Part shown: in pieces, positions 2,944-16,344 of the stretch | Layout of the letters: each line of letters opens with the position of its first letter | Numbering within the stretch: the first letter of the stretch is position 1 | DNA from: an uncultured Rhodospirillales bacterium | GTDB taxonomy: Bacteria; Pseudomonadota; Alphaproteobacteria; Acetobacterales; Acetobacteraceae | Assembly: GCA_903843125.1 (NCBI GenBank) | Contig: CAIMOR010000140.1 | Span: 1 to 58,950 of the forward strand | DNA: 58,950 nt | Reading direction: 5' to 3' | Position numbers and translations under genes: made by a program | The notes under the pieces: model-generated | What the model was told of the DNA's origin: nothing | Database searches by the model: none | What the model saw: the letters and a program-made list of their open reading frames with translations, nothing else

Positions 2944-4263
2944 TCACGGTGCGTAGCCGAGGTCGGTGCCGGGTTCGGCGCGCATGAAGCTGGCGCCGGC
3001 TTCGTCCCACGGCGTGCCGACCGGCAGCGTGAGTGACACCGCGCGGACCAGGAAGGTCTCCGGCTGCGCCGCGCCGGCGGGACGTTCCGCACGGTCGCGC
3101 AGCGCGGCCAGGTTTTCGAGCAGGTAGCGCCGGGTCATGGCGATGCCGGTGTCGCTGACGCAGAGATGTTCCTTGGTGCGGTCGTAGATGGCGGCGACGC
3201 CGGACTGGCAGGCGGCGTCCTGCACCCAAAGGCCGGGCAGGCCGGAAAACCAGGTGGTGCGTTGCAGGTCGTAGTCGATCTGGTAGGCGGTTTGCGGGGT
3301 GAACTTGGTCCAGAAGTCGGCGTAGGGCGTGGCGGGCGGCTTGGGCGCGTAGCTGTGCAGGCTGGCGTGGCCGGTCTCGCGGCCGTTGTGGCCCTGCTGC
3401 ATCAGCTCCCGCGTGCGCGGGTAGAAGGGCTGCGCCGGCGTGTAGGAGAACATCAGGCAGAGCGTGGTCTCGTCGTCGATCGGCACCCAGGCGTGGCCGC
3501 TGAGTTCGGGGAATTTCGACTGCGGCGGCACCAGCGTCCAGAAGGGCAGCATGAACTGGTTGACGCGCCAGTAGGCGGTGTCCTCGTTCAGCTTGCGACG
3601 GGACGCGATGCTGACGCCGAAGGGCTGCCGGCGGCATTCGAAGACCGGGCGCAGGTCGGTTGCCTGGGTCCAGGCGTTGACCGCGCCCTTGCTGTCGACG
3701 CGACCATGCAGGATGGCGGCGTGGGCGCTGTCGATCTCGCCTTCCAGCGCCTGCAGCCAGTTGCATTCCTGCACCCGCCAGGAGAGATGGACGTTCTCCT
3801 GCGGCACCAGGTTCCATTCGATTTCCGGCAGCGGCGGCGGGTCGGCCTGGTCGGGGCCCATGTAGGTCCAGAGCACGCCGTTGCGTTCGCGGCAGGGATA
3901 GGATTTCAGCCGCACCTTTTCCTTGAGGCGGCTGCGCTCGGGCTCGGCGGGCATGTCCATGACCTTGCCGTCGGCGGCGAATTTCCAGCCGTGATAGACG
4001 CAGCGCAGGCCGCATTCCTCGTTGCGGGCATACAGCAGCGGCGCGCCGCGATGCGGGCAGGCGTGGTCGACCAGGCTGGGGCGGCCTTCGCTGTCGCGCC
4101 AGGCGACCAGGTCCTCGCCGAGCAGGCGGATCCGCTTGGGTGGTGCATCGGCCACCAGCTGGTCGGCAGGATAGAACGGGATCCAGTACAGCCGCATCAG
4201 CGCGCCCATCGGCGCGCCGGGGCCGACACGGACCAGGGCTTCGTTGTCTGCGTGTGAGAGCAT
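2944..4263 (-). CDS. Rieske non-heme iron aromatic-ring oxygenase, large subunit
   Basis: 439 residues from the ATG at 4263, preceded by GGAGGAG. The Rieske [2Fe-2S] ligands are visible as CPH (Cys69, His71) and CVYH (Cys88, His91). The catalytic mononuclear-iron site is EGEIDSAHAAILHG with Asp178, His181 and His186. Length and layout match the phthalate 4,5-dioxygenase / vanillate-demethylase-like group, which hydroxylate or O-demethylate aromatic acids using electrons from a separate reductase. No reductase gene is nearby, so electrons must come from elsewhere. It is followed by a Bug receptor and divergent from a MarR regulator. The substrate is unknown. Confidence 0.93.
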   Translation of the reverse strand: MLSHADNEALVRVGPGAPMGALMRLYWIPFYPADQLVADAPPKRIRLLGEDLVAWRDSEGRPSLVDHACPHRGAPLLYARNEECGLRCVYHGWKFAADGKVMDMPAEPERSRLKEKVRLKSYPCRERNGVLWTYMGPDQADPPPLPEIEWNLVPQENVHLSWRVQECNWLQALEGEIDSAHAAILHGRVDSKGAVNAWTQATDLRPVFECRRQPFGVSIASRRKLNEDTAYWRVNQFMLPFWTLVPPQSKFPELSGHAWVPIDDETTLCLMFSYTPAQPFYPRTRELMQQGHNGRETGHASLHSYAPKPPATPYADFWTKFTPQTAYQIDYDLQRTTWFSGLPGLWVQDAACQSGVAAIYDRTKEHLCVSDTGIAMTRRYLLENLAALRDRAERPAGAAQPETFLVRAVSLTLPVGTPWDEAGASFMRAEPGTDLGYAP

Positions 4264-4898: not shown

Positions 4899-6506
4899 TC
4901 AGCGCCTGACTTCGATGCCGGCGGCGACGCGGTCCCAGAACGGGCTGCGGTCCTCGGCGGCGGCGGTCTTCAGGCGATGCTTCTCCACCTTCTGGCTTGG
5001 CGTGCGCGGGAACTCGGCGACGAAGCGGATGAAGCGCGGCACCATGAAGTAGGTCATGTTGGCGACGCAGTGCGCCAGCAATTCGGCTTCGGCCAGCGTG
5101 CTGCCCGGCTTCAGGATGACGGCGACGGCGACCTCGTCCTCGCTGGTCTCGGCGGGTATGGCGAAGGCGGCGGCCTCGGCCACGGCGGGATGACGGGCGA
5201 CGATCTGCTCGACCTCATAGGCAGAAATGTTCTCGCCGCGCCGGCGGATGCTGTCCTTCTTGCGGTCGACGAACCAGAGATAGCCATCGGTGTCGAGGAT
5301 GCCGCGGTCCCCGGTGTGGAACCACAGGTTGCGCGTGGCTTCCAGCGTGGCTGCGGGCATCTTCCAGTAGCCGCCGGCGGCGCCCCAGGCGCGGTTGCTG
5401 CGCAGCAGGATCTCGCCGGGCTGGCCGGCCGGCAACGGCGCGTCGTCGTCGTCGACGATGCGGATCTCGATGCCGTCGCGGGCGCGGCCGGCGCTGCCGC
5501 GCTTTTCCGCCGGCGCGTCGGTGGTGAACCCGGTGGCCATGGCGTAGTCGGACAGGCCGTAGTTCGAGACCAGCTTCAGGCCGAAGCGCTGTTCGAAGGC
5601 TTCGGCGAATTTCGGCAGCGGCGTGGCGCTGACCATGCGCAGCCGGTTGTCGCGGTCGCCGCCGGCCTCGGGCGCGGCCCAGAGGAAGGCCGCCATGGAG
5701 CCCAGCAGGTTGGTGATGGTGGCGCCGCTCGCACGCACCTCCGGCCAAAATTGGCTGACCGAGAAGCGGGACGACAGCGCAACCGAGCCACCGACCAGCA
5801 GCGCGCAGAGCGACTGCGTCTGCAGCGCGTTCATGTGGAACAGCGGCAGGCAGACGTAGAACACGTCATCCGCGCGGTGACCGTGGGTTTCCGCGTTGGA
5901 CAGGCCGAAGATCAGCGAGGAGGCCTGGCTGTGCATGCAGCCCTTGGAGGGGCCGGTGGTGCCGGAGGTATAGGCCAGCATCGCCAGGTCGGAGGGCTTC
6001 ACCGCCGTGTCGGGTGGCGCGTCGCTCGCCTGCATCAGCGCGGCGCAGGGGATGCCAGGCAGGGCGCAGGCGGCGCCGGCCGAGGGCAGCAGCACTGTGC
6101 GCCGCAGGTGCGGCAGCGGGCCGAGCGCGGCGATGCGGTCGGCCAGATCCTCGCTGACCAGCAGCGCGGTGGCGTCGGATTGGTCGAGGTAGTAGCGCAG
6201 CACCTCGCCGCGGCAGGCGGTGTTCACCGGCACCGCGACGGCGCCTATCTTGCCCAGGGCGCAGAAGGCGAACAGGTGCTCGGGCGAGTTCTCGGCAAAG
6301 AGCGCGACATGGGTGCCGTGGCTGACGCCTTCCGCCAGCAGGCCGTTCGCCAGGCGGTTGATCGCGGCGTCGGCCTCGCGGTAGCTCCAGCGCCGGCCGT
6401 CCGGCAGCCAGTGCAGGTAGGGCTTCTCGGCATGGGCGGCCACCTGGCGGCGCCAGGCCGCGGCCATGGTCAGCTCGTGCAGTGGCCAGGTGGCTTCCCG
6501 CGTCAT
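4899..6506 (-). CDS. AMP-forming acyl-CoA ligase (crotonobetaine/carnitine-CoA ligase-like)
   Basis: 535 residues from the ATG at 6506, overlapping the stop of the upstream Bug gene by 4 nt. ANL-superfamily motifs are intact: phosphate loop YTSGTTGPSKG (residues 179-189), adenine-site NYGLSDYAMATGF in place of the common YGxTE, hinge motif DRKKDSIRRRGENISAYEVEQ, and the C-terminal catalytic lysine region SQKVEKHRLK. The enzyme activates a carboxylic acid with ATP and CoA through an acyl-adenylate. It is last in a leftward operon with a thiolase-like protein, a DUF35 protein and a Bug receptor, so it probably feeds CoA thioesters to that pathway. Substrate unknown. Confidence 0.92.
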   Translation of the reverse strand: MTREATWPLHELTMAAAWRRQVAAHAEKPYLHWLPDGRRWSYREADAAINRLANGLLAEGVSHGTHVALFAENSPEHLFAFCALGKIGAVAVPVNTACRGEVLRYYLDQSDATALLVSEDLADRIAALGPLPHLRRTVLLPSAGAACALPGIPCAALMQASDAPPDTAVKPSDLAMLAYTSGTTGPSKGCMHSQASSLIFGLSNAETHGHRADDVFYVCLPLFHMNALQTQSLCALLVGGSVALSSRFSVSQFWPEVRASGATITNLLGSMAAFLWAAPEAGGDRDNRLRMVSATPLPKFAEAFEQRFGLKLVSNYGLSDYAMATGFTTDAPAEKRGSAGRARDGIEIRIVDDDDAPLPAGQPGEILLRSNRAWGAAGGYWKMPAATLEATRNLWFHTGDRGILDTDGYLWFVDRKKDSIRRRGENISAYEVEQIVARHPAVAEAAAFAIPAETSEDEVAVAVILKPGSTLAEAELLAHCVANMTYFMVPRFIRFVAEFPRTPSQKVEKHRLKTAAAEDRSPFWDRVAAGIEVRR

Positions 6507-7465
6507 TCCACCACCAGCCCGGCGTCGCGGATCACCGCCTGCCATTGCGGCACTTCGGCGCGGATGCGCTGTGCCAGCGCCTCGCTGCCGCCGCCGCCGG
6601 CTTCGACACCCGAGGCACGGAATCGGCTGCGCACCGCGGGTTCGGCCAGCACCTTGTCGATCTCGGTATTGAGGCGCGCGACGATGGCGGGCGGCAGGCC
6701 CGCGGGGCCAAGTACGCCATGCCAAGCCTGCGCCTGGAAACCCGGCGCCACGCTGGCCATGGTGGGCGTCTCCGGCAGCAGCGGCCAGGCTTCCGGCGAA
6801 CTGACGCCGAGCAGCCGCAGCCGCCCGCCAACCACCTGTTCCGCGGCGGTGGTGGTGAAGGAGGTGACGGCGAAGTGCACCTGGCCGGAGACCACGGCGG
6901 TCAGTGTCGGCGCGGCGCCCTGGTAGGGCACGTGGACCACGTTGATGCCGGCCTCGCGGTTGAACAGCAGGCCGCCGAGGTGGCCGAGCGAGCCGACGCC
7001 GCCGGAGGCGAAGTTCAGCTGGCCCGGACGCGCCTTGGCGTAGGCGACCAGTCCGGCCAGGTCCTGCACCGGCAGCTGTTCCGTGGAGGACAGCAGCACC
7101 AGCGGTTGCAGCGCCACCAGCGCCAGCGGCGTGAAGCTGTGGACGGCATCGTAGCCTGCGTCTCGCCGCAATGCCGGGATGATGCTGGTGGGGCCGTTGT
7201 TGGTGATGACCAGGGTATGGCCGTCCGGCGCCGCCTGGGCGACCTCGCGCATGGCGATGGCGCCCGCGGCGCCGGCCCGGTTCTCGATGACGACGGGCTG
7301 GCCGAGCGTGATGCGGAGCGGCTCCGCGATCATCCGCGCCATCACGTCGGTCAGGCCGCCGGGTGGGTAGGGGATCAGCAGCCGGATCGGGCGAGAGGGC
7401 CAGGATTGCGCGCGGGCGGAAGCCACCAGCGCTGGCGCGGCCAGCAGCAGCGTGCGGCGGTTCAT
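6503..7465 (-). CDS. Bug/TctC-family periplasmic solute-binding protein
   Basis: 320 residues starting MNRRTLLLAAPALVASARAQ, a twin-arginine-like signal peptide, followed by the Bug signature IRLLIPYPPGGLTDVMARM. Other family loops: VVIENRAGAAGAIAMREV, GHTLVITNNGPTS, HVPYQGAAPTLTAVVSGQV. The start overlaps the DUF35 stop, and the stop overlaps the ligase start (ATGA both times), so it is translationally coupled within the thiolase-DUF35-Bug-ligase operon. Its sequence resembles the Bug protein at 868 in several loops (IAMREV; NNGPT), and both genes lie near copies of the same palindrome, so the two may bind related ligands (inference). Confidence 0.92.
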   Translation of the reverse strand: MNRRTLLLAAPALVASARAQSWPSRPIRLLIPYPPGGLTDVMARMIAEPLRITLGQPVVIENRAGAAGAIAMREVAQAAPDGHTLVITNNGPTSIIPALRRDAGYDAVHSFTPLALVALQPLVLLSSTEQLPVQDLAGLVAYAKARPGQLNFASGGVGSLGHLGGLLFNREAGINVVHVPYQGAAPTLTAVVSGQVHFAVTSFTTTAAEQVVGGRLRLLGVSSPEAWPLLPETPTMASVAPGFQAQAWHGVLGPAGLPPAIVARLNTEIDKVLAEPAVRSRFRASGVEAGGGGSEALAQRIRAEVPQWQAVIRDAGLVVE

Positions 7466-7872
7466 CCGACGCTCCTGGCGGCGAACAGCGGACCATCGGG
7501 GTGCCGCAGCACCACCAGGCGCACCGGGCTGTCGAGCGGCAGGTTCTCGAGCAGCGCACAGGCCAGGCGGATGCCTTCGTCCAGGTCGACGATGCCGACG
7601 CGGTAGGGCGCCACCGCGCGGAAGGCGAGCGGCGCCGCGTGGATGGCCGTGGCGGCGTAGAGCCGACCATTGCCGGAGAGCGGCGCCCAGGCAACCTCGC
7701 GGTGCCAGCAATGTGGGCAGAGCTGCTTGGGCGGGAAGCTGAACCGCTGGCAGGCCGTGCAGCGGGTGGTCTCCAGCCGGCCTTCAGCCAGGCTGCTCCA
7801 GAAGCGGCGGGTGAAGGCCGAGACGCGCGGCGGGTAGGCGCGCGGAGTGGCGATGTCGATGATCTCAAGCAT
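7462..7872 (-). CDS. DUF35-type zinc-ribbon/OB-fold acyl-CoA-associated protein
   Basis: 136 residues. An N-terminal helix region RRFWSSLAEGRLETTRC leads into a rubredoxin-like zinc ribbon with Cys38, Cys41, Cys52 and Cys55 (CTACQ...CPHC), then an OB-fold (SGNGRLYAATAIHAAP; VGIVDLDEGIRLACALL). DUF35 proteins partner with thiolase-fold enzymes. In steroid side-chain degradation the ChsH2 DUF35 domain binds the aldolase Ltp2. The gene overlaps the thiolase-like gene by one base (TGATG), which supports a stable complex of the two products (inference). Confidence 0.9.
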   Translation of the reverse strand: MLEIIDIATPRAYPPRVSAFTRRFWSSLAEGRLETTRCTACQRFSFPPKQLCPHCWHREVAWAPLSGNGRLYAATAIHAAPLAFRAVAPYRVGIVDLDEGIRLACALLENLPLDSPVRLVVLRHPDGPLFAARSVG

Positions 7873-9071
7873 CAGCGAACGGCCTCCAGCACATGCACCA
7901 GGGCGGCGTTGTAGTTGCCGAGTTCGGCGCTGGTGACGCCGAGCCGGGCGTTGGGCACCTGGCGGGCGCCTGCGCGGCCGCGCAGCTGCTCGGCGCATTC
8001 GAACAGGCTGTAGAACGGCGTGACGTAGGCGGGGTGGCCGCGCGATTGCAGGCCGCCCGAAGTGCAGATGGGAATGCGGCCGCCGAGGCTGGTTTCGCCG
8101 GCCGCCGCGGCGCGGGCGCCCTGGCCACGCGGCAGCAGGCCCAGCGCCTCGCTGGCCAGCACCTCGACGATGGTGCAGGGGGCGTAGAGCTCGGCGAAGT
8201 CCATGTCGGCGGGGCCGACGCCGGCGGCCTCGTAGGCGGTGCGCCCGGCGGTTTCGGCCGAGATCAGCCGGATCATGTCGTTCGGCACTTCGCTGATCTG
8301 GTGGGCGCCCTCGTGGAAGAAGCCGCGGCTGCGGACCCGCACGTAGGGGCGGCCGAGGCCGCGGGCGACGTCCTCCTCGGCCAGCACCAGCACCACGGCG
8401 CCGTCGCCGCGCGGTGGCACCTCGAACAGGCCGAGCGGCTCGACGATCATCGGCTGGGCGAGGACGTCTTCGAGCGTGATGGGCTTGCGGAATTGCGCGA
8501 TGGGGTTCAGCGCGGCGTGGGCGCGGTTCTTCACCGCGACGCTGGCGAGTTCGGCGCGGGAGGACGCGTGTTCGTGGATGTAACGGGCGGCATCCATGGC
8601 GTACCAGGCGATGGGCGTGATGCCGAAGGGCACCTGGAAATCCACGTCGCCGGTGGCGCGCATGCTGCTCATCATGTGTTCGGCGGCGGAGGTGGCGCTT
8701 TCGAAGTTGACGCCGAGCGCCAGGGCGACGCGGGCGCGGCCGAGCAGAATGTCGTTGGCGGCCTGTTCGAAGGCGAGGCCCGCGGTCATGCCGTTGCCCA
8801 GCACCTCCGCCACCGTTCCGGTGCAGGGCAGGCGCAGGTAGTGCGCCATGAAGGTCGCGAAGTACTTCTGCAGCGTGTAGGGCCGGCATTGCGAGAAGGC
8901 CATGGCGCCGATGTCGCCGCGCTCCACGCCGGCATCGGCGACGGCATCCAGCACCAGCCCGGCGAGCAGCTCATGCTCCAGCACCTGCTCGGGGGCGTCG
9001 GCGGGCTTCTGCCACTTGCCGACGGGCAAGGCTGCCGCGCCGATGATGCAGACCGTTCTGGTCATGGCCAT
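7872..9071 (-). CDS. Thiolase-superfamily (SCP-x/Ltp2-like) protein, probable acyl-CoA aldolase
   Basis: 399 residues from the ATG at 9071, with GGGAG 5 nt upstream. The thiolase fold is clear (VALALGVNFESATSAAEH; TSGGLQSRGHPAYVTPFY, with the conserved His at residue 346). The usual nucleophilic cysteine motif is replaced by GNGMTAG, with Met95 at the expected Cys position, and no second catalytic cysteine is seen near the C-terminus. Such cysteine-free proteins paired with DUF35 partners include Ltp2, which cleaves beta-hydroxyacyl-CoA by retro-aldol chemistry. First gene of a leftward operon that diverges from the synthetase-MaoC-dehydrogenase operon. Confidence 0.88.
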   Translation of the reverse strand: MAMTRTVCIIGAAALPVGKWQKPADAPEQVLEHELLAGLVLDAVADAGVERGDIGAMAFSQCRPYTLQKYFATFMAHYLRLPCTGTVAEVLGNGMTAGLAFEQAANDILLGRARVALALGVNFESATSAAEHMMSSMRATGDVDFQVPFGITPIAWYAMDAARYIHEHASSRAELASVAVKNRAHAALNPIAQFRKPITLEDVLAQPMIVEPLGLFEVPPRGDGAVVLVLAEEDVARGLGRPYVRVRSRGFFHEGAHQISEVPNDMIRLISAETAGRTAYEAAGVGPADMDFAELYAPCTIVEVLASEALGLLPRGQGARAAAAGETSLGGRIPICTSGGLQSRGHPAYVTPFYSLFECAEQLRGRAGARQVPNARLGVTSAELGNYNAALVHVLEAVR

Positions 9072-9098
9072 TCGTCTCCCTGCCACCTCGATGGCGGG

Positions 9099-9127
9099 TT
9101 GACGATCCCGCGCCGCGATGCTGTTGT
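9099..9127 (+). promoter_or_regulatory. Candidate sigma70 promoter for the rightward synthetase operon
   Basis: TTGACG (9099-9104), a 17-nt spacer, then TGTTGT (9122-9127). The palindrome at 9129-9143 would cover the transcription start. The -10 box is weak, so this is tentative. Confidence 0.35.
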
Positions 9128-9130
9128 CAA
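9102..9130 (-). promoter_or_regulatory. Candidate sigma70 promoter for the leftward thiolase operon
   Basis: On the minus strand: TTGACA (9125-9130 complement), a 17-nt spacer, then GATCGT (9102-9107 complement). The -35 box abuts the palindrome at 9129-9143. Predicted transcription enters the thiolase gene starting at 9071. Confidence 0.4.
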
Positions 9131-9143
9131 TGGACCGTCCAAT
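9129..9143. promoter_or_regulatory. Candidate GntR operator, copy 2
   Basis: AATGGAC-C-GTCCAAT: the inner TGGAC-C-GTCCA is perfectly symmetrical and 6 of 7 arm positions match overall. It sits in the divergent gap between the thiolase and synthetase operons and overlaps both candidate promoters. It matches the element at 794-808 beside the GntR gene at all but two positions. Confidence 0.6.
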
Positions 9144-9188
9144 AGACCCGCGGCACAAGCCCGGGCCCCAAGGTGAGGAAAGCTCCGC

Positions 9189-11339
9189 ATGGCCGGCAGG
9201 AAGGTCTATCGCGCCGCGGAGCTGCGCCGGCTGGTCGACCCGCGCAGCATCGCGGTGGTCGGCGCGTCGGAAACGCCGGGCGCCTTCGGCCAGCGTACCC
9301 TGGCCAACCTGGCGAGGTTTCAGGGCAGGGTGTTCGGGGTGAACCCGAAATACCGGGAGGTCGGCGGGGTTCCGTGCGTGCCGTCGCTGGCGGACCTGCC
9401 GGAGGCACCGGACTGCGTGGTGCTCTGCGTCGCCGGCGCGCTGGTGGAGGCCTCGCTGCAAGCGGCGATCGATGTTGGGGCTGGCGGCGTCATCGTCTAT
9501 GCCTCCGGCTTCGCCGAGACCGGGCGCGCCGAGGCCATGGCGGCGCAGGAACACCTGGCCGCCATGGCGCAGCGCGGCGGGGTGCGGCTGGTGGGGCCGA
9601 ACTGCGTCGGGCTGACCAATGTCGGCAGTGGCGCGGCGATGAACTTCATGCCGGATTGCGGCGCGATGATCGATGGCCGGCTCGGCCGCGTCGGCATCGT
9701 CTCGCAGTCCGGCGCGCTGGGCTACACGGTGCTGCAGGGCATGATGCGGGGCGTCGGCGTCAGCCACTACCTGGCGGCGGGCAATGCTGCGGATGTCGAT
9801 GTCGCCGACTTCGTCGCGGGGTTGGCCGAGGATGATGCGGTCGGCGCGATCGTCTGCCTGTTCGAGGGTGTGCGGGATGGCCAGCGGCTGCTGGAGGCCG
9901 GGCGGATTGCGCAGGCCGCGGGCAAGCCGCTGGTGGTCTACAAGGCCGGCAACACCGAGGCTTCGGGCAAGGCAGCGCTGTCGCATACCGGCACGCTGGT
10001 CGGCTCCGTCGCGGCGTATCGCGCGGCCTTCGAGGAGGTCGGTGCGATCCAGACCGACAACCTGGAGGACGTGCTGGAACTGGCGAGCTTCATGGCCAAG
10101 GCGCGGCCGCCGCGGCGGGGCAGGGGCATCGGCATCATGGCGACGTCGGGCGGTGCGGGGGTGATCTGCGCCGACAAGGCCGAGCAGCACGGCCTGGCGC
10201 TGCCGCCGCTGGCGCCGCAGACCCGCGCGGCGCTGGAGCAGGTGGTGCCGGATTTCGGGTCGGTCAACAACCCGGCGGATACCACGGCGGAAGTGCTGAA
10301 GACCGCGAGCACCTTCGTGCATTGCCTCGACGCCTTCGCCAATGACCCCGGCTACAGCGCGGTGGTGGTGCCGCTGGTCTTCGCGCATCCCGGTGCCACT
10401 GGCACGCGGGCGCCGGTGCTGTGCGAGGTGGCGGCGCGGAGCGAGGCCGAGATCGTCGCGGTATGGATGAACGAGTGGCTGGAAGGTCCGGGCAGCCGCG
10501 TGCTGGATGCCGACCCGCGGGTGATGCTGTTCCGTTCGCCGGAGCGCTGCCACCGGGCGCTGGCCGCCTGGTTCGACTGGCACGCGCGGCGCGGGGAGGT
10601 GACGGCGCCGGCGGCGCGGCTTTCGCCAGCGGGTGCGGCGGTGGCGGCGCGGGCGGTGCTGGCGGGGGCCGCCGGACGCGCGCTGGGCGAGCAGGACAGC
10701 AAGCGGCTGCTGGCGGCCTACGGCATCGCGGTGCCGGCCGAGGCGGTGGTGCGGACGCCGGATGAAGCGGCGGTGGCAGCGGCGCGGATCGGCTTTCCCG
10801 TGGTGGTCAAGGTCGCCTCGGCCGAAATCCTGCACAAGACCGAGGTGGAGGGCATTCGCTTGAACCTGGCCGACGGCGATGCGGTGCATGCGGCGGCCAC
10901 GGCGGTGCTGGCGGCGGCGCGGCGGCATCGGCCGCAGGCGCGGATCGATGGCGTTTCGGTGCAGGCGATGGCGCCGCCGGGTGTGGAACTGGTGCTGGGG
11001 CTGCAGCTGGACCGGCAGTTCGGGCCGCTGGTGGTGGTCGGCTCCGGCGGCGTGCTGGTGGAGTTGCTGCAGGACGTGGCGACGGGACTGGCGCCGCTGA
11101 CGCCGGCGCGGGCACAGGCCATGCTGCGCGGGTTGCGCGGGCACAAGCTGCTGGCTGGCTTCCGTGGCCAGGCGCCGCGTGACGAGGCGGCGGCGGTGGA
11201 GGCCGTCGTCCGGTTTTCCGAGTTGGCGGCCGACCTGGCCGACGTGATCGAGGAGGCGGACGTGAATCCACTGATCGTCGGTGCCAGCGGTGCGGTCGCG
11301 GCCGATGCATTGTTCGTGCTCAAGGAGGCCACGCCATGA
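9189..11339 (+). CDS. NDP-forming acyl-CoA synthetase (ACD family, fused subunits)
   Basis: 716 residues. The N-terminal CoA-binding Rossmann domain begins LVDPRSIAVVGASETPGAFG. Succinyl-CoA-synthetase-like domains follow, with the phosphohistidine loop ALSHTGTLVGS (His266). The C-terminal ATP-grasp part starts near residue 490 (LLAAYGIAVPAEAVV; FPVVVKVASAEILHKTEVEGI) and ends EEADVNPLIVG. These enzymes interconvert acyl-CoA plus ADP and Pi with free acid plus CoA and ATP, and can also activate acids. It is the first gene of a rightward operon whose next gene (MaoC) overlaps it by 4 nt. An AMP-forming ligase is in the opposite operon, so the locus has two acyl-CoA-forming enzymes. Substrate unknown. 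Confidence 0.93.
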   Translation: MAGRKVYRAAELRRLVDPRSIAVVGASETPGAFGQRTLANLARFQGRVFGVNPKYREVGGVPCVPSLADLPEAPDCVVLCVAGALVEASLQAAIDVGAGGVIVYASGFAETGRAEAMAAQEHLAAMAQRGGVRLVGPNCVGLTNVGSGAAMNFMPDCGAMIDGRLGRVGIVSQSGALGYTVLQGMMRGVGVSHYLAAGNAADVDVADFVAGLAEDDAVGAIVCLFEGVRDGQRLLEAGRIAQAAGKPLVVYKAGNTEASGKAALSHTGTLVGSVAAYRAAFEEVGAIQTDNLEDVLELASFMAKARPPRRGRGIGIMATSGGAGVICADKAEQHGLALPPLAPQTRAALEQVVPDFGSVNNPADTTAEVLKTASTFVHCLDAFANDPGYSAVVVPLVFAHPGATGTRAPVLCEVAARSEAEIVAVWMNEWLEGPGSRVLDADPRVMLFRSPERCHRALAAWFDWHARRGEVTAPAARLSPAGAAVAARAVLAGAAGRALGEQDSKRLLAAYGIAVPAEAVVRTPDEAAVAAARIGFPVVVKVASAEILHKTEVEGIRLNLADGDAVHAAATAVLAAARRHRPQARIDGVSVQAMAPPGVELVLGLQLDRQFGPLVVVGSGGVLVELLQDVATGLAPLTPARAQAMLRGLRGHKLLAGFRGQAPRDEAAAVEAVVRFSELAADLADVIEEADVNPLIVGASGAVAADALFVLKEATP

Positions 11340-11809
11340 TCCGCGGCAGATGTGTCGAGGACTTCGTCGAGGGGCAGGTGGATATCAGCCGCGCCCGCAC
11401 CGTCACCGAAACCGACGTGGTGCAGTACACCTGGGTTTCCGGCGACACCAACCCGATGCACACCGACGCGGTGCATGCGGCGAAGTCGCCGCTGGGGCAG
11501 CGGATCGCCCATGGCACGCTGGGCATGAGCATCGCCACCGGGCTGAGCGCCAGCCTCGGCTACATGGACGGCACCGCGATAGCGGCGCTGGGCGTGGACG
11601 AATGGCGCTTCCTGAAGCCGATCTTCATCGACGACACGATTCACCTGCGGGCCACCATCGTCAGTGCGCGGGCGACCAGCAAGCCCGACCGCGGGGTGGT
11701 GGTGCGGCGGATGGAACTGCTGAACCAGCATGGCGACGTGGTGCAGACCGGGCTGATGACGACGATGGTGCTGACCCGCTCCGGCGCCGCCGCCCTGGAG
11801 GCGACGTGA
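11336..11809 (+). CDS. MaoC-like (R)-enoyl-CoA hydratase
   Basis: 157 residues, single hot-dog domain. The hydratase-2 motif is clear in YTWVSGDTNPMHTDAVHAA, with the catalytic Asp37/His42 pair, and the following RIAHGTLGMSIATGL is typical of MaoC dehydratases. It adds water across a trans-2-enoyl-CoA. It overlaps the synthetase stop by 4 nt, and its own stop overlaps the dehydrogenase start, so all three are translationally coupled. Together with the dehydrogenase downstream it would yield the beta-hydroxyacyl-CoA substrate expected for the Ltp2-like aldolase encoded divergently. Confidence 0.93.
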   Translation: MIRGRCVEDFVEGQVDISRARTVTETDVVQYTWVSGDTNPMHTDAVHAAKSPLGQRIAHGTLGMSIATGLSASLGYMDGTAIAALGVDEWRFLKPIFIDDTIHLRATIVSARATSKPDRGVVVRRMELLNQHGDVVQTGLMTTMVLTRSGAAALEAT

Positions 11810-12966
11810 TGAGTGGCCTGATGAACCTGCACGGGCTGACCGCCGAACAGCGGATGATGCGCGAGAGCGTGCTGGGCATCTGCGCCAAGCATGCGCCGTG
11901 GGACGCGATACGGCGGATGGACGAGGCACGGGAGTTTCCGCACGCTGCCTATGACGCGCTGGCCGAGGCCGGCTATCTCGGGCTGTTCTACCCGGAGGAA
12001 TATGGCGGCATGGCCGGCAGCCATACCGACCTGGCGGTGCTGCTTGAGACGCTGGGTTACTACTACACCGGCATCGCCCAGGGCGTGACCACCAGCATGA
12101 TCTACGCCGGCATGCATGTGGTGAAGTTCGCGCCCGATGCGTTGAAGGCCGAGATCGTGCCGCAGGTTGCCGCCGGCAAGGTCAAGTTGGCGCTGGCGAT
12201 GAGCGAGCCGGGGACGGGTTCCGACGTCGCGGGCATCCGCACCACCGCGCGGCGCGACGGCGACGACTACGTCATCAACGGCAACAAGGTATGGATCACC
12301 TGCGCGCATGTCGCCGACTACCTGGTGGTGATCTGCCGGACCGACCCCAGCGCGCCGCGGCACCACGGCATGAGCCCGATCCTGGTGCCGACCAATGCGC
12401 CGGGGTTGCGCATCCGCCCCTTGCAGATGCTGGGGCGGCGGACCACGCATGCGAACGAGATATTCCTGGAGGATGTGCGGGTGCCCGTCGGCAACCTGAT
12501 CGGCCAGGAGGGCGGCGCGTGGAAGAACATCATGACGTGCCTGGGTGTTGAACGGCTGGCGCTGGCGGCGATTTCGGCCGGGCATTGCTTCAAGATCACC
12601 GAATACGCGCGCGACTACGCGAAGCAGCGCATCCAGTTCGGCCAGCCGATCTCGGACTACCAGGTGATCCAGCACAAGCTGGTGGACATGCACATCATGG
12701 CGGAGACGGCGCGGCAGGCGGTGTACCGCGTGGCGGCGCTGCTGGATGCCGGCGAGGCGGCGGTGGAGGAAACCTCGATGGCGAAGATCATCGCCACCGA
12801 GAACAACTTCAAGTGCGCCGACATGGGGCTGCAGATCCTCGGCGGCGCCGGCTACTCCATGGAATACGACATGCAGATGTTCTTCCGCGACAGCCGCGTC
12901 GGGCCGATCGGCGGCGGCAGCAACGAGATCCAGCGCAACGTGCTGGCGAAGCGGATGGGGCTGTAG
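11809..12966 (+). CDS. Acyl-CoA dehydrogenase
   Basis: 385 residues from the ATG at 11809. FAD/acyl-CoA signature LALAMSEPGTGSDVAGI, substrate-loop GNKVWITCAHVADY, and the C-terminal FAD-contact ILGGAGYSMEYDMQMFFRD with GGGSNEIQRN. The usual base Glu of the MCAD type (EGT before xxIQR) is a Gly here. Glu248 in LGVERLALAA lies at the helix-G position used as base by isovaleryl-CoA and long-chain dehydrogenases. It oxidises acyl-CoA to 2-enoyl-CoA with electrons passed to ETF. It fits between activation and MaoC hydration in the same operon. Confidence 0.95.
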   Translation: MSGLMNLHGLTAEQRMMRESVLGICAKHAPWDAIRRMDEAREFPHAAYDALAEAGYLGLFYPEEYGGMAGSHTDLAVLLETLGYYYTGIAQGVTTSMIYAGMHVVKFAPDALKAEIVPQVAAGKVKLALAMSEPGTGSDVAGIRTTARRDGDDYVINGNKVWITCAHVADYLVVICRTDPSAPRHHGMSPILVPTNAPGLRIRPLQMLGRRTTHANEIFLEDVRVPVGNLIGQEGGAWKNIMTCLGVERLALAAISAGHCFKITEYARDYAKQRIQFGQPISDYQVIQHKLVDMHIMAETARQAVYRVAALLDAGEAAVEETSMAKIIATENNFKCADMGLQILGGAGYSMEYDMQMFFRDSRVGPIGGGSNEIQRNVLAKRMGL

Positions 12967-13034: not shown

Positions 13035-13979
13035 TTGCGCAGACGGACCATCCTGGGCGTGCTGGCGCTGCCGGGCGCGGCATCGGCGCAGGCGCGGCAA
13101 CTGCACATCGTGAACCCTTTCCCGCCGGGCTCGCCGGTGGACCTGGTGGCCCGCCTGGCCGGCGACAAGCTGGAGGCCGCCTTCGGTCAGCCGGTGGTGG
13201 TGGAGAGCCGCAGTGGGGCGGGCGGCACCATCGGCGCCGGCTTCGTCGCCCGCGCCGCGGCGGATGGCAGCACGCTGCTTTGCACCACGGCCTCCCTGCT
13301 CACCGCGGCGCTGATCCAGCGCGACCTGCCGTACCAGCCATTGCGGGACCTGGTGCCGATTTGGGGCGTGCAGGCCGGCGGGCTGGCGGTGGTGGTGAAC
13401 CCCGCGGTGCCGGCCCGCACGCTGGCGGAGTTCACCGCGCTGGCCCGGGCGCAGCCGGGCCGACTCAGCTTCGCCTCCTCCGGCCATGGCTCGGTGCAGC
13501 ATTTCGGCGGTGCGCTGTACCAGGCACGCGCCGGGGTGCAACTGACGCATGTGCCGTATCGCGGCGGGGCACCGGCGGCGACCGACCTGATCGCCGGGCA
13601 TGTCGATGCGATGTTCGACGCGTTCTCCAACCAGTGGGCCAATATCCAGGCCGGCCGGGTGCGGGTGCTGGCACTGCTGCGCGACCGGCGGCTGGGCCTG
13701 GCGCCGGACATCCCCACCGCCGCCGAGGCCGGGTTGCCGGGTGCGGTGATGCCGAGTTGGATCGGGCTGTTCGCACCCGCGGCGACGGCCGCTGCGGCAC
13801 TGGAGCGGATCGAGCACGTGCTGCGGCAGGCCATGGCGCAGCCGGATGCGGCGGACAAGCTGCTCAGGGCGGGGCAGGAGCCGGATTTCATCGCCGGTGC
13901 CGCGTTCAGGCAGCGCATCGTCGAGGATGCCGGGATATTCGCGCGGATCGCCCGCGAAGCGGGCATAGGGCCGGAGTGA
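13035..13979 (+). CDS. Bug/TctC-family periplasmic solute-binding protein (TTG start)
   Basis: 314 residues from a TTG codon at 13035, chosen because a strong GGGGAGG lies 5 nt upstream and translation then begins RRRTILGVLALPGAASAQA, a signal peptide. Bug motifs: LHIVNPFPPGSPVDLVARL, VVVESRSGAGGTIGAGF, HVPYRGGAPAATDLIAGHV. The reading frame stays open much further upstream, but that part is antisense-like sequence over the dehydrogenase. It is fourth in the rightward operon, 68 nt after the dehydrogenase and 4 nt before the enolase-superfamily gene, and may bind the substrate of that enzyme. No membrane partners are nearby. Confidence 0.9.
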   Translation: MRRRTILGVLALPGAASAQARQLHIVNPFPPGSPVDLVARLAGDKLEAAFGQPVVVESRSGAGGTIGAGFVARAAADGSTLLCTTASLLTAALIQRDLPYQPLRDLVPIWGVQAGGLAVVVNPAVPARTLAEFTALARAQPGRLSFASSGHGSVQHFGGALYQARAGVQLTHVPYRGGAPAATDLIAGHVDAMFDAFSNQWANIQAGRVRVLALLRDRRLGLAPDIPTAAEAGLPGAVMPSWIGLFAPAATAAAALERIEHVLRQAMAQPDAADKLLRAGQEPDFIAGAAFRQRIVEDAGIFARIAREAGIGPE

Positions 13980-13983
13980 CGCC

Positions 13984-15096
13984 GTGAAGATTGAACGCAT
14001 CGAAACCACCGCGATCAGCGTGACGCTGCCGCGCGACTTCCGCGGCAGCGTCTACAGCGTGCCGCAGAAGAACTGCATCCTGACCCGCATCTTCACCTCG
14101 GATGGCGTGGTCGGCGAATGCGTCAATGGCGAGGGCGCCGGCGATATCCAGCTGCAGCAATGCCGGATCATCCAGCAGGAGCTGGCGCCGATGCTGCTGG
14201 GCCAGGACCCGACGCGGATCGAGGCGCTGTGGCCGCTGATGTGGCGGGCAACCTCGCGCGGGGGGCGGGACCCGCGGGCGGCGGTGCGGGCGGTGGCGTG
14301 CCTGGACAGCGCGCTGTGGGACGTTCTGGGCAAGGTGGCGGGCCTGCCGCTGTGGCGGCTATGGGGCGGCGCGCACGAGGCCTTGCCGGTGATCTGCATC
14401 GGCGGGCAATACCAGGAGGGTGCCGGGCCCGAGGTCTATGCCGAAGAGATGGCGGCGTTGCAGGCCGAGGGCATGGCCGGGTGCAAGTTCAAGGTGGGCG
14501 GTGCCACGCCGGAGCACGACGCCGCCCGTACCCGCGCGGCGCGCGAAGCGGCGGGCGAGGACTTCATCCTGTGCCCGGATGCGAACCGGGCCTGGCGCCG
14601 CAGCGAGGCGCTGGACTACGCGCGCCGGGCCGCGCCGCTGGGGCTGCGCTGGTTCGAGGAGCCGGTGCTTTGGGCCAATGACCGGCGCGACATGGCGCTG
14701 CTGCGCGGGCTGACCGGGATTCCGATCTGCGCCGGGCAGAGCGAGAGCACCGCGGAGGATTGCCGCGACCTGATCGTGGATGGCGCGGTCGACGTGTGCA
14801 ACCTGGATGCCAGCTGGGGCGGCGGCCCCACCGCCTGGCTGCGGGTGGCGAAGCTGGCGGCCTGCTTCGGCGTGGAGATGGCGCATCATGGCGAGCCGAT
14901 CCTGGGCGCGCAGCTGCTCGGCGCGGTGGCGAATGCAACCTATGTCGAGGTGCATCACCGGGAACGCGACCCGGCCTTCTGGCGCATGGCCGAGGGCCGC
15001 GGCGACATCCGCGACGGGTTGTACCACCTGCCGGCGGGGCCGGGCTTCGGCCTCAGCTACGACCAGGGCTTCGTCGACCACTACAAGGTGGGCTGA
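13984..15096 (+). CDS. Mandelate racemase/muconate lactonizing enzyme family protein (acid-sugar dehydratase-like)
   Basis: 370 residues from a GTG codon. The enolase-superfamily capping domain comes first, then the barrel: Lys168/Lys170 in CKFKVGG (KxK motif), metal ligands Asp199 in CPDANRAW and Glu225 in FEEPV. The third ligand region reads AGQSES instead of the common GEx, so Glu254 or Gln252 would have to serve. His in MAHHGEP is the candidate acid/base on the other face. Members abstract the alpha proton of a carboxylate to racemise, dehydrate or cycloisomerise. It is placed after a Bug receptor and 3 nt before a PLP enzyme gene. The exact reaction is not predictable. Confidence 0.9.
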   Translation: MKIERIETTAISVTLPRDFRGSVYSVPQKNCILTRIFTSDGVVGECVNGEGAGDIQLQQCRIIQQELAPMLLGQDPTRIEALWPLMWRATSRGGRDPRAAVRAVACLDSALWDVLGKVAGLPLWRLWGGAHEALPVICIGGQYQEGAGPEVYAEEMAALQAEGMAGCKFKVGGATPEHDAARTRAAREAAGEDFILCPDANRAWRRSEALDYARRAAPLGLRWFEEPVLWANDRRDMALLRGLTGIPICAGQSESTAEDCRDLIVDGAVDVCNLDASWGGGPTAWLRVAKLAACFGVEMAHHGEPILGAQLLGAVANATYVEVHHRERDPAFWRMAEGRGDIRDGLYHLPAGPGFGLSYDQGFVDHYKVG

Positions 15097-15099
15097 ACG

Positions 15100-16344
15100 A
15101 TGAGCTTCGCGCGGGGGCTGCGCTGCCTGCGCTGCGGCGCGACCCATCCGCTGGCCTGGCACGACCGGGACTGCCCGGCCTGCCGCGCGGCGGGGGCGCC
15201 GAGCGCGTTGGCGATCGACTACGATCCCGCCATGCTGGCGCCGCGACCGCCGGCGCCGCAGGGGCATGGGCTGTGGCGCCATGGCCCGCTGCTGCCGGTG
15301 GCGGCCGGAGATGCCGTGACGCTGGGCGAAGGTGGCACGCCGTTGCTGGCGCTGCCGCGGCTGGCCGCCGCGCTCGGCCTGGCGGCGTTGCAGGCCAAGG
15401 ACGAGACGCGCGGGCCGACCGGGTCGTTCAAGGACCGGCTCGCCTGTGTCGGCGTCTCGGCGGCGCGGGTGCTGGGCGCGCCGCTGGTGGTTTCCTCCTC
15501 CTCCGGCAATGCGGGGGCGGCGGCGGCGGCCTATGCGGCGCGGGCGGGCCTGCCGTGCATCGTCTTTACCTTTCGTGGTGCGTCGCTGCCGCTGGTGACG
15601 CAGATGCGGGCATTGGGTGCGAAGGTTGTCTACGCCGAGCGCAGCGAGGACCGGGTGACCCTGCTGCGCGAAGGCGTGCGCCGGTTCGGCTGGTTCTCCA
15701 CCTCGCCATTCACGGACCCGATCACGGGCAGCAACCCCTTCGCGCTGGAGGGCTACAAGACGCTGGCCTACGAGATTGCCGAGGACCTCGGCTGGGAAGT
15801 GCCGGACTGGTGCGTGCTGCCGGTGTGCTATGGCGACGCGCTGGCCTCGATCCTCCGCGGCTTCGAGGACATGGTGGCGCTGGGCTGGACGCGCCGCGTG
15901 CCGCGGTTGGTGGCGGCGGAGGTTTCCGGGTCGCTCGCCGCCGCACTGGCCAGCGGCGCCGACGCCCTGCCGGTGCTGCGCCGCAACGCGCCGAGCGTGG
16001 CCACCTCGATCAACGCGCCGCGCGGCACCTACCAGGCGCTGGACGCGCTGCGCCGCAGCAAGGGCCGGGCGGTGCCGGTCGATGATGCGGCGATGCTGCA
16101 CTGGCAGGCGCGGCTGGGGCGGGAGGAAGGGCTTTGGGTGGAGCCGTCCTCGGCCGCGGCGCTGGCCGCTGTGGCGGCGCTGCGGGCCGATGGCAGCATG
16201 GTCGTCACCGACCGGGTGGTGGTGCTGGCCACCGCGAGCGGCCTGAAGGACCCCGCTGCCGCGGCTGCGACCATGCCGGAGATACCGGTCGTGCCGACCG
16301 ACCTGGACGCCGCGCTGGCGGTGATTGCGGCGCGCTATGGCTGA
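15100..16344 (+). CDS. Threonine-synthase-like PLP-dependent enzyme with N-terminal zinc ribbon
   Basis: 414 residues. The N-terminal ribbon has Cys9, Cys12, Cys25 and Cys28 (CLRCG...CPAC). A fold-type II PLP domain follows: PLP lysine Lys111 in GPTGSFKDR, serine-rich phosphate loop SSSSGNAG, and C-terminal VEPSSAAALAAV. This layout is common to threonine synthases and related beta-eliminating or beta-replacing enzymes. In a catabolic operon beside an enolase-superfamily enzyme, deamination or elimination on a hydroxy-amino acid is as likely as threonine synthesis (inference). Last gene of the rightward operon. Its end overlaps the opposing binding-protein gene by 10 bp. Confidence 0.85.
   Translation: MSFARGLRCLRCGATHPLAWHDRDCPACRAAGAPSALAIDYDPAMLAPRPPAPQGHGLWRHGPLLPVAAGDAVTLGEGGTPLLALPRLAAALGLAALQAKDETRGPTGSFKDRLACVGVSAARVLGAPLVVSSSSGNAGAAAAAYAARAGLPCIVFTFRGASLPLVTQMRALGAKVVYAERSEDRVTLLREGVRRFGWFSTSPFTDPITGSNPFALEGYKTLAYEIAEDLGWEVPDWCVLPVCYGDALASILRGFEDMVALGWTRRVPRLVAAEVSGSLAAALASGADALPVLRRNAPSVATSINAPRGTYQALDALRRSKGRAVPVDDAAMLHWQARLGREEGLWVEPSSAAALAAVAALRADGSMVVTDRVVVLATASGLKDPAAAAATMPEIPVVPTDLDAALAVIAARYG

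Follow-up and report, generated by a model that had tools for sequence, protein, structure and literature searches.

In the literature covered here, two DUF35-associated aldolases are characterised, and both act on steroid side chains. TcLtp2–ChsH2 (6ok1) is an aldolase of the steroid C3 side chain, and CtSal–CtShy (9myr) is an aldolase of the bile-acid C5 side chain. In both systems the nucleophilic Cys of thiolases is replaced by Gly and a Tyr occupies the base position (Tyr294 in TcLtp2, Tyr302 in CtSal). According to the available part of PMC12329534, the Gly at the Cys position of CtSal rules out thiolysis. Proteins of the same fold include the thiolase-like protein 4u4e and its YDSF/YDAF relatives, the DUF35-bound acetoacetyl-CoA thiolase 6esq, 7yvy, the SCP2 thiolase 6hsj, and BbsAB (7pxp); a literature search returned no paper bearing the code 7fhr.

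The window, that is, the whole analysed stretch of 58,950 nucleotides from an uncultured Rhodospirillales bacterium, contains the gene of a further protein of this fold, designated ALD, together with the following genes:

2944..4263, minus strand: Rieske oxygenase (LigXa_C), assigned by domain family
4899..6506, minus strand: AMP-forming acyl-CoA ligase of the minus-strand operon, overlapping the TctC gene at 6503-6506
6503..7465, minus strand: TctC-type solute-binding protein of the minus-strand operon, with a 4-base overlap with the DUF35 gene
7462..7872, minus strand: DUF35 partner of the ChsH2 type, rubredoxin-like zinc ribbon (C-x2-C-x10-C-x2-C) and OB fold, assigned by domain family
7872..9071, minus strand: ALD, thiolase-fold protein of 399 aa (Thiolase_N and Thiolase_C_1), proposed acyl-CoA retro-aldolase
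9189..11339, plus strand: ADP-forming acyl-CoA synthetase (CoA_binding_2, Succ_CoA_lig, ATP-grasp_5), His266 in SHTG
11336..11809, plus strand: MaoC-family enoyl-CoA hydratase, Asp37/His42 intact, with a 4-base overlap with the ligase gene
11809..12966, plus strand: acyl-CoA dehydrogenase (ACAD), Glu248 invariant, with Gly in position 369, where the catalytic Glu usually lies
13035..13979, plus strand: open reading frame downstream of the ACAD gene, TctC (Bug) type solute-binding protein, family assigned by eye, no profile

The initial annotation had described a thiolase-like gene overlapping a DUF35 gene, and a synthetase, a MaoC hydratase with intact Asp37/His42 and an ACAD on the opposite strand. 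All of these were found; the overlap amounts to one shared base (TGATG), and the synthetase is of the ADP-forming, ATP-grasp kind. The genes within the proposed operon span of 7462-12966 are real at their coordinates, but this span left out the TctC and AMP-forming ligase genes of the minus-strand operon. Scans of the region 8900-9400 for promoters and terminators gave no match. Catalytic residues of the plus-strand enzymes are conserved among relatives, the window row counted: His266 of the ADP-forming ligase in 19/19 rows, Asp37 and His42 of MaoC in 37/37, and Glu248 of ACAD in 44/44, site 369 of the latter being Gly in 41 and Ala in 3. The zinc cysteines of the DUF35 protein are incompletely kept (49 to 52 of 61 rows per site).

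The active-site region of ALD comprises Gly94, Tyr296-Ala-Pro-Cys299, His346, Glu383 and the stretch H253-E-G-A-H257. Met95 had been regarded as the replacement of the nucleophilic Cys, but in every alignment compared the residue in this column is Gly94, namely in four MAFFT modes, with an HMM built without ALD rows, and in pairwise alignments with 7yvy and 6hsj; Met95 was thereby ruled out as the replaced nucleophile. The designation 'cysteine-free' holds for the nucleophile position only, as six cysteines are present elsewhere in the window protein. In the conservation alignment, covering 67 of 69 loci (L056 and L085 left out) and the window, Gly94 is invariant (68/68 rows), while position 95 is Met in 64 rows, including the window protein, Cys in 2 and Ile in 2. 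Since L089 and L090 are incomplete, C-terminal residues are counted out of 66: the motif Y-[AS]-P-C contains Tyr, Pro and Cys in all 66 rows and Ala or Ser in 62 and 4, and His346, the GHP histidine of thiolases, and Glu383 are likewise kept in 66/66. His253 and His257 were each found in 67/67 rows. The invariance of Gly94, Tyr296, Pro298, Cys299, His346, Glu383, His253 and His257 indicates that the active site of ALD is under selection.

In the motif alignment, which took in 18 of the 68 ALD rows, the pair Gly94 and Tyr296 is present in all 18 and in 17/17 rows of the branch of Ltp2, Sal and YDxF proteins; the 19 thiolase rows contain His296 with Cys94 (17 rows) or Ser94 (2 rows). Judging from aligned residues, Gly with Tyr marks the branch to which Ltp2 and Sal, both proven aldolases, belong, and Cys (rarely Ser) with His marks thiolases. 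The unrooted tree showed three clades with no order among them. The rooted tree, with 10 of the 18 ALD rows and outgroup rows from 3 of 4 outgroup loci, and with the incomplete rows BbsB, 4yzo, L092 and L093 omitted, placed ALD, as a separate clade (100/100) outside the 17-row Ltp2/Sal/YDxF clade (100/100), beside the Ltp2/Sal branch (support 98/97); positions of ALD outside (p 0.104) or with thiolases (p 0.155) were not rejected in AU tests. ALD is probably sister to the Ltp2/Sal branch.

ALD has in common with TcLtp2–ChsH2 the DUF35 partner, the Gly at the Cys site and the base-position Tyr, as well as, by expectation only, a β-hydroxyacyl-CoA substrate. The motif YDHF of TcLtp2, however, is YAPC in ALD, the acid Tyr344 is replaced by His346 and His296 by Pro; the TcLtp2 clade excludes ALD, and MaoC at the ALD locus is a stand-alone protein. 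The same three features are common to ALD and CtSal–CtShy, but CtSal contains YDCY with the essential Cys304, in the column of which ALD has Pro298, and Gln352 in the column of His346. The CtSal system has a Cys3His1 zinc finger and a MaoC–DUF35 fusion, whereas the window encodes a C4 zinc finger and an unfused DUF35 protein. The protein 4u4e and the YDSF/YDAF proteins share Gly94 and Tyr296 with ALD but retain both Asp and Phe of the YDxF motif, and ALD lies outside their clade; of the 17 rows of the Y branch, 12 have His in the GHP position. The fold and the GHP His are shared with 6esq, 7yvy, 6hsj and BbsAB, and a DUF35-type partner with 6esq and BbsAB, while the HDxF motif of this group is absent from ALD, as is the nucleophilic Cys present in 6esq, 7yvy and 6hsj (the corresponding stretch of BbsB was outside the comparison).

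The AlphaFold model of ALD (pLDDT 86.2, pTM 0.89) has the thiolase fold, with Z-scores of 51.4 against 6esq, 51.2 against 7yvy and 36.8 against BktB; the aldolases CtSal (46.6) and TcLtp2 (44.0) are less close than the Cys thiolases 6esq and 7yvy. This ranking, the retention of His346 and the invariance of Cys299 (66/66) would suit a true thiolase or Claisen enzyme whose nucleophile has moved, Cys299 of YAPC being the most likely candidate. Such a function is nevertheless unlikely: Cys299 falls in the column of the HDxF/YDxF Phe, a column with no known nucleophile, the pair Gly94/Tyr296 is the aldolase combination, and no dehydrogenase of the PF02737 type was found in the neighbourhoods of the main subfamily.

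Gene neighbourhoods were compared within 7 kb around ALD at the 46 of 69 loci with at least 6 kb on each side, divided into 39 main loci (identity of 60% or more) and a divergent group of 7; owing to near-duplicates (e.g. L036 and L038), counts of loci do not equal independent events. The DUF35 gene accompanies ALD at 39/39 main loci. ACAD was found near ALD at 35/39 and MaoC at 28/39, the remaining 4 and 11 loci, respectively, having no match or one below the identity cut. The activating enzyme is represented by the ADP-forming ligase at 19 main loci and by a CoA-transferase at another 19, with both at none and neither at one, and relatives of the AMP-forming ligase occur at 5 of the 7 divergent loci. 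Searches with three query proteins revealed no 3-hydroxyacyl-CoA dehydrogenase of the PF02737 type in the 39 main neighbourhoods. The oxidation could, however, be supplied by a short-chain dehydrogenase or by an enzyme encoded outside the locus, the bacterium's own genome containing nine PF02737 matches.

Ltp2-like retro-aldol cleavage had been proposed for this locus. Retro-aldol cleavage rather than thiolysis is the best-supported reading, because the Gly/Tyr pattern of aldolases, the DUF35 gene at all main loci and the lack of a PF02737-type neighbour agree with it; the narrower kinship to Ltp2 was not upheld, as ALD lies outside the Ltp2/Sal/YDxF clade and contains neither YDHF nor YDCY. 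Hydrolytic retro-Claisen cleavage or decarboxylation, with CoA esters of the 3-keto or malonyl type as substrates, is improbable. Very slow malonyl-CoA decarboxylation by TbSLP, a relative without the nucleophilic Cys, is described in the available part of PMC12329534, but the same part reports CtSal to be without such activity, and no PF02737-type gene that would make a 3-keto substrate was found nearby.

Accommodating these observations, the locus is likely to be a catabolic module for aldolytic β-oxidation of a probably non-steroid acid, in which ALD–DUF35 would cleave a β-hydroxyacyl-CoA. The ADP-forming ligase would convert the acid to its CoA thioester, ACAD would desaturate the acyl-CoA, and the MaoC hydratase would add water to the enoyl-CoA. 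ALD with DUF35 would then split the β-hydroxyacyl-CoA into acetyl-CoA and a ketone or aldehyde, replacing oxidation and thiolysis; an alpha-methylated substrate would yield propionyl-CoA instead of acetyl-CoA. The solute-binding protein encoded at 13035..13979 likely serves uptake. As aldol reactions are reversible, the complex might also work synthetically, joining acetyl-CoA to a carbonyl compound, but this direction is very unlikely, since solute-binding proteins, ACAD and an activating enzyme (ligase or CoA-transferase) suggest that the substrate is taken up and degraded.

At the active site, Tyr296, in the position of the base Tyr of both aldolases, would remove the proton of the β-hydroxyl, with Gly94 beside it at the site of CtSal Gly89, and His346, which takes the place of TcLtp2's acid Tyr344, may reprotonate the enolate. 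This assignment of the proton donor is conjectural, because ALD has no Asp of YD/HD and has Pro at the site of TcLtp2 His296 and CtSal Cys304. The genes, their motifs and conservation, the gene order around them and the tree are observed; from these we infer the activity of ALD, the roles of its residues and the direction of the reaction, as well as a β-branched or alicyclic substrate. The displaced glutamate of ACAD resembles the arrangement in isovaleryl-CoA dehydrogenase, and hints at a β-branched substrate.

DUF35, MaoC, ACAD and ligase genes match the set of the steroid pathway, and a KstD-like flavoprotein, whose closest solved structure is the 3-oxosteroid 1-dehydrogenase 7p18 (298 bits), is encoded near ALD at 15/39 main loci. 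A steroid or bile-acid side-chain aldolase of the Ltp2 or Sal kind is nonetheless quite improbable, given the position of ALD outside their clade and its YAPC motif. No match to the KstD family over the cut-off was found in the own genome, and the flavoprotein scored higher with NCBIfam models of generic (687 bits) and oxocyclohexenecarboxylate dehydrogenase (516.7 bits) type than with 3-ketosteroid models (at most 444.6 bits), none over the cut-off. A search of the own genome for KshA was silent, as were all its controls. A non-steroid substrate is plausible.

Members of the ALD lineage were found in several bacterial groups, in Proteobacteria and Actinobacteria. ALD is encoded in 8 of 72,556 plasmid records, two of the eight being typed as conjugative; the five-gene core is present on 3 of the 4 plasmids inspected, and all five plasmid records annotating ALD name it 'thiolase family protein'. 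Relatives of the Rieske oxygenase (60-70% identity) occur at 11/69 ALD loci, and the enzyme at 2944..4263 is a probable pathway partner. A more specific and rather doubtful scenario is plasmid-borne, non-steroid aldolytic β-oxidation of alicyclic or β-branched acids by a third deep aldolase lineage (Gly94/Tyr296/His346, with His253 and His257 possibly helping), the resulting cyclic ketone then being attacked by KstD/ChcC-like flavoproteins and the Rieske oxygenase. EC 4.1.3.35 is (1-hydroxycyclohexan-1-yl)acetyl-CoA lyase, an enzyme described, to our knowledge, without a gene; if this scenario is true, ALD could supply the gene for an orphan enzyme of this kind. The literature on cyclohexylacetate, naphthenic acids, ring aromatisation and jasmonate, mostly at the level of titles and listings, names no gene for such cleavage. 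The available part of PMC4591350 contains a single mention of EC 4.1.3.35, in a software-made table under cyclohexanone, and that of PMC5906575 none of the five terms sought.

In terms of its sequence, ALD forms a branch of its own within a family best known for steroid degradation, belonging to neither Ltp2 nor Sal, and would offer an aldolase whose catalytic residues differ from theirs. If ALD cleaves aldolytically, aldol cleavage would be a more general route for acids with a non-oxidisable β-carbon, with a defined gene set for which acids of the naphthenic type and terpenoid acids would be candidate substrates.

The five genes described in the initial annotation proved to be real, as judged by profile searches for their families and by ORF calls:

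7462–7872, minus strand, DUF35 partner gene, with profile matches to ChsH2-type zinc-ribbon and OB-fold domains
7872–9071, minus strand, ALD, thiolase-fold protein and putative acyl-CoA retro-aldolase, 399 aa, with Thiolase_N and Thiolase_C_1 matches
9189–11339, plus strand, ADP-forming ligase
11336–11809, plus strand, MaoC hydratase
11809–12966, plus strand, acyl-CoA dehydrogenase (ACAD)

None of the NCBIfam cut-offs was reached by ALD (top score 230.9 bits versus 420 required). On the plus strand, the frames of the ligase and MaoC share 4 bases, and those of MaoC and ACAD share 1 base. Past DUF35, the minus-strand operon continues with two more genes, one for a TctC solute-binding protein and one for an AMP-forming ligase, with a 4-base overlap at each junction; further out are a MarR-type regulator, recognized by eye in the ORF list, and a Rieske oxygenase, found by profile match. 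The latter (2944–4263) is near 7fhr, a chain labelled putative phthalate 4,5-dioxygenase (629.7 bits), and its relatives adjoin ACAD in the loci L028 and L032. The ACAD operon is followed (13984–16344) by genes for a protein of the mandelate-racemase/enolase type and a PLP enzyme resembling threonine synthase; neither was found beside ALD in the scan of 69 loci.

The observation of a thiolase-like protein lacking the nucleophilic cysteine holds, but the position first proposed, Met95, is off by one residue: in four MAFFT modes, an HMM built without ALD, and pairwise comparisons with 7yvy and 6hsj, the Cys column corresponds to Gly94. Among 36 non-ALD ingroup rows, His in column 296 is paired with Cys (17) or Ser (2) in column 94, and Tyr is paired with Gly in 17 of 17; Gly94 and Tyr296 are present in all 18 ALD rows used. 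According to the CtSal paper (PMC12329534), the catalytic residues are Tyr302 and Cys304 in the bile-acid side-chain aldolase CtSal (9myr) and Tyr294 and Tyr344 in the steroid side-chain aldolase TcLtp2 (6ok1), Gly at the place of Cys excludes thiolysis, and the backbone of CtSal Gly89 is located at the beta-hydroxyl. By our own count on the CtSal chain (offset 24, anchored at Tyr302), Gly89 occupies column 94.

Across 67 relatives (48–88% identity), an ALD-specific set comprising Y-[AS]-P-C, His346, Glu383 and H-[ED]-G-x-H has no exceptions in rows reaching these sites. The last motif (residues 253–257; His253 and His257 each in 67/67) is expected to lie near the active site; it resembles the metal-binding HExxH, yet is located at a strand end in the AlphaFold model. 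Residue 95 is Cys instead of Met in L036 and L038, which have an otherwise intact ALD and identical gene layouts. The thiolase-like proteins L118 and L123 are another odd pair: Ser replaces their nucleophilic Cys, but the HDAF His is retained.

In a tree rooted with classical thiolases, ALD forms a single clade (support 100/100) outside the Tyr branch of Ltp2, Sal and YDxF proteins (100/100), within which both TcLtp2 and CtSal fall; ALD is adjacent to this branch at 98/97, alternative placements not being rejected by tree tests (p 0.104 and 0.155). The AlphaFold model of ALD has a thiolase fold (mean pLDDT 86.2, below 50 at residues 139–153 and 211–215), most similar to 6esq (Z 51.4) and 7yvy (51.2), followed by CtSal (46.6) and TcLtp2 (44.0). 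Accordingly, ALD probably works like an Ltp2-type aldolase, judging from its residue pattern, yet is a member of neither Ltp2 nor Sal.

Scanning of genome contigs with a six-ortholog alignment revealed 69 loci. They come from Alpha- and Betaproteobacteria, from a small number of Gammaproteobacteria and from Actinobacteria, the last represented, going by record titles, by Nocardia, Rhodococcus, Pseudarthrobacter, Citricoccus, Microbacterium and one Streptosporangiales MAG. Synteny was counted in 46 loci with 6 kb per side, 39 of the main subfamily (at least 60% identity) and seven divergent. In the main loci, DUF35 is found near ALD in 39/39, ACAD (at least 50% identity) in 35/39 and MaoC (at least 38%) in 28/39. 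The activating enzyme is an ADP-forming ligase in 19 and a family III CoA-transferase in 19, never both, and L051 has neither; this either-or covers these two enzymes, and the window has an AMP-forming ligase besides its ADP-forming one. Other neighbours in the 39 loci are a KstD/ChcC-like flavoprotein (15), second CaiB (11), MmgE/PrpD (10), nitroreductase (9), NIPSNAP (8) and Rieske protein (7). A search of the 46 loci with three PF02737-type dehydrogenases from the window's own genome detected no relative; a short-chain dehydrogenase may nonetheless be encoded there. The 18 other ACAD matches in that genome are each at most 37% identical to the window ACAD; ALD is thus linked to one specific ACAD.

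The divergent subfamily (L071–L082 and L084–L087) shows 52–57% identity; in the seven loci with good flanks, an AMP-forming ligase is near ALD in five, and ACAD or MaoC of the window type in none. A kynureninase-like gene was noticed by eye in L075–L077. Elsewhere, in L044, L045 and L070, a DUF2889 gene repeatedly adjoins the MaoC gene.

ALD is rare: it was found in 5 of 289 genomes of the class sample (E 1e-70) and in 2 of 60 relatives (E 1e-60), the own genome included in both, and in 8 of 72,556 plasmid records, two of them typed conjugative. On Roseomonas gilardii plasmid 3, typed non-mobilizable, ALD lies inside one long gene run: solute-binding protein, nitroreductase, CaiB, ligase, two MaoC, ACAD, ALD and DUF35, then a hypothetical gene, MmgE/PrpD, electron-transfer flavoprotein genes, flavoprotein, second solute-binding protein and NIPSNAP; an integrase is encoded farther along. 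Two more plasmids also carry the five-gene core: pDY25-B, which is typed conjugative, and pA82, which is typed non-mobilizable. The C. metallidurans CH34 megaplasmid carries ALD and DUF35 with ACAD, CoA-transferase, MaoC (40%) and Rieske (60%) genes.

Retro-aldol cleavage by ALD is, with fair confidence, the likeliest reading. The pathway would proceed from a ligase or CoA-transferase through ACAD and the hydratase to aldol cleavage. In ACAD the usual catalytic Glu site is Gly or Ala in 44/44 and Glu248 is invariant, at the position where isovaleryl-CoA dehydrogenase presumably has its base. The ALD-linked flavoprotein of the relatives scores highest against generic models (687 bits), followed by an oxocyclohexenecarboxylate dehydrogenase (516.7) and a 3-ketosteroid dehydrogenase (444.6), none over the cut-off; among solved structures, a 3-oxosteroid dehydrogenase comes closest to it. 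No KstD/ChcC-like flavoprotein was noticed in the window, which has the Rieske gene only. Two KstD-family matches elsewhere in the own genome (L137 and L138) each contain one TGA and are possibly decayed genes or sequence errors. The flavoprotein of the relatives fits a cyclic ketone product, compatible with a steroid or non-steroid substrate. A beta-branched acid, once hydrated, would yield a tertiary alcohol; since this is not oxidisable, ketone-forming cleavage would be the natural exit.
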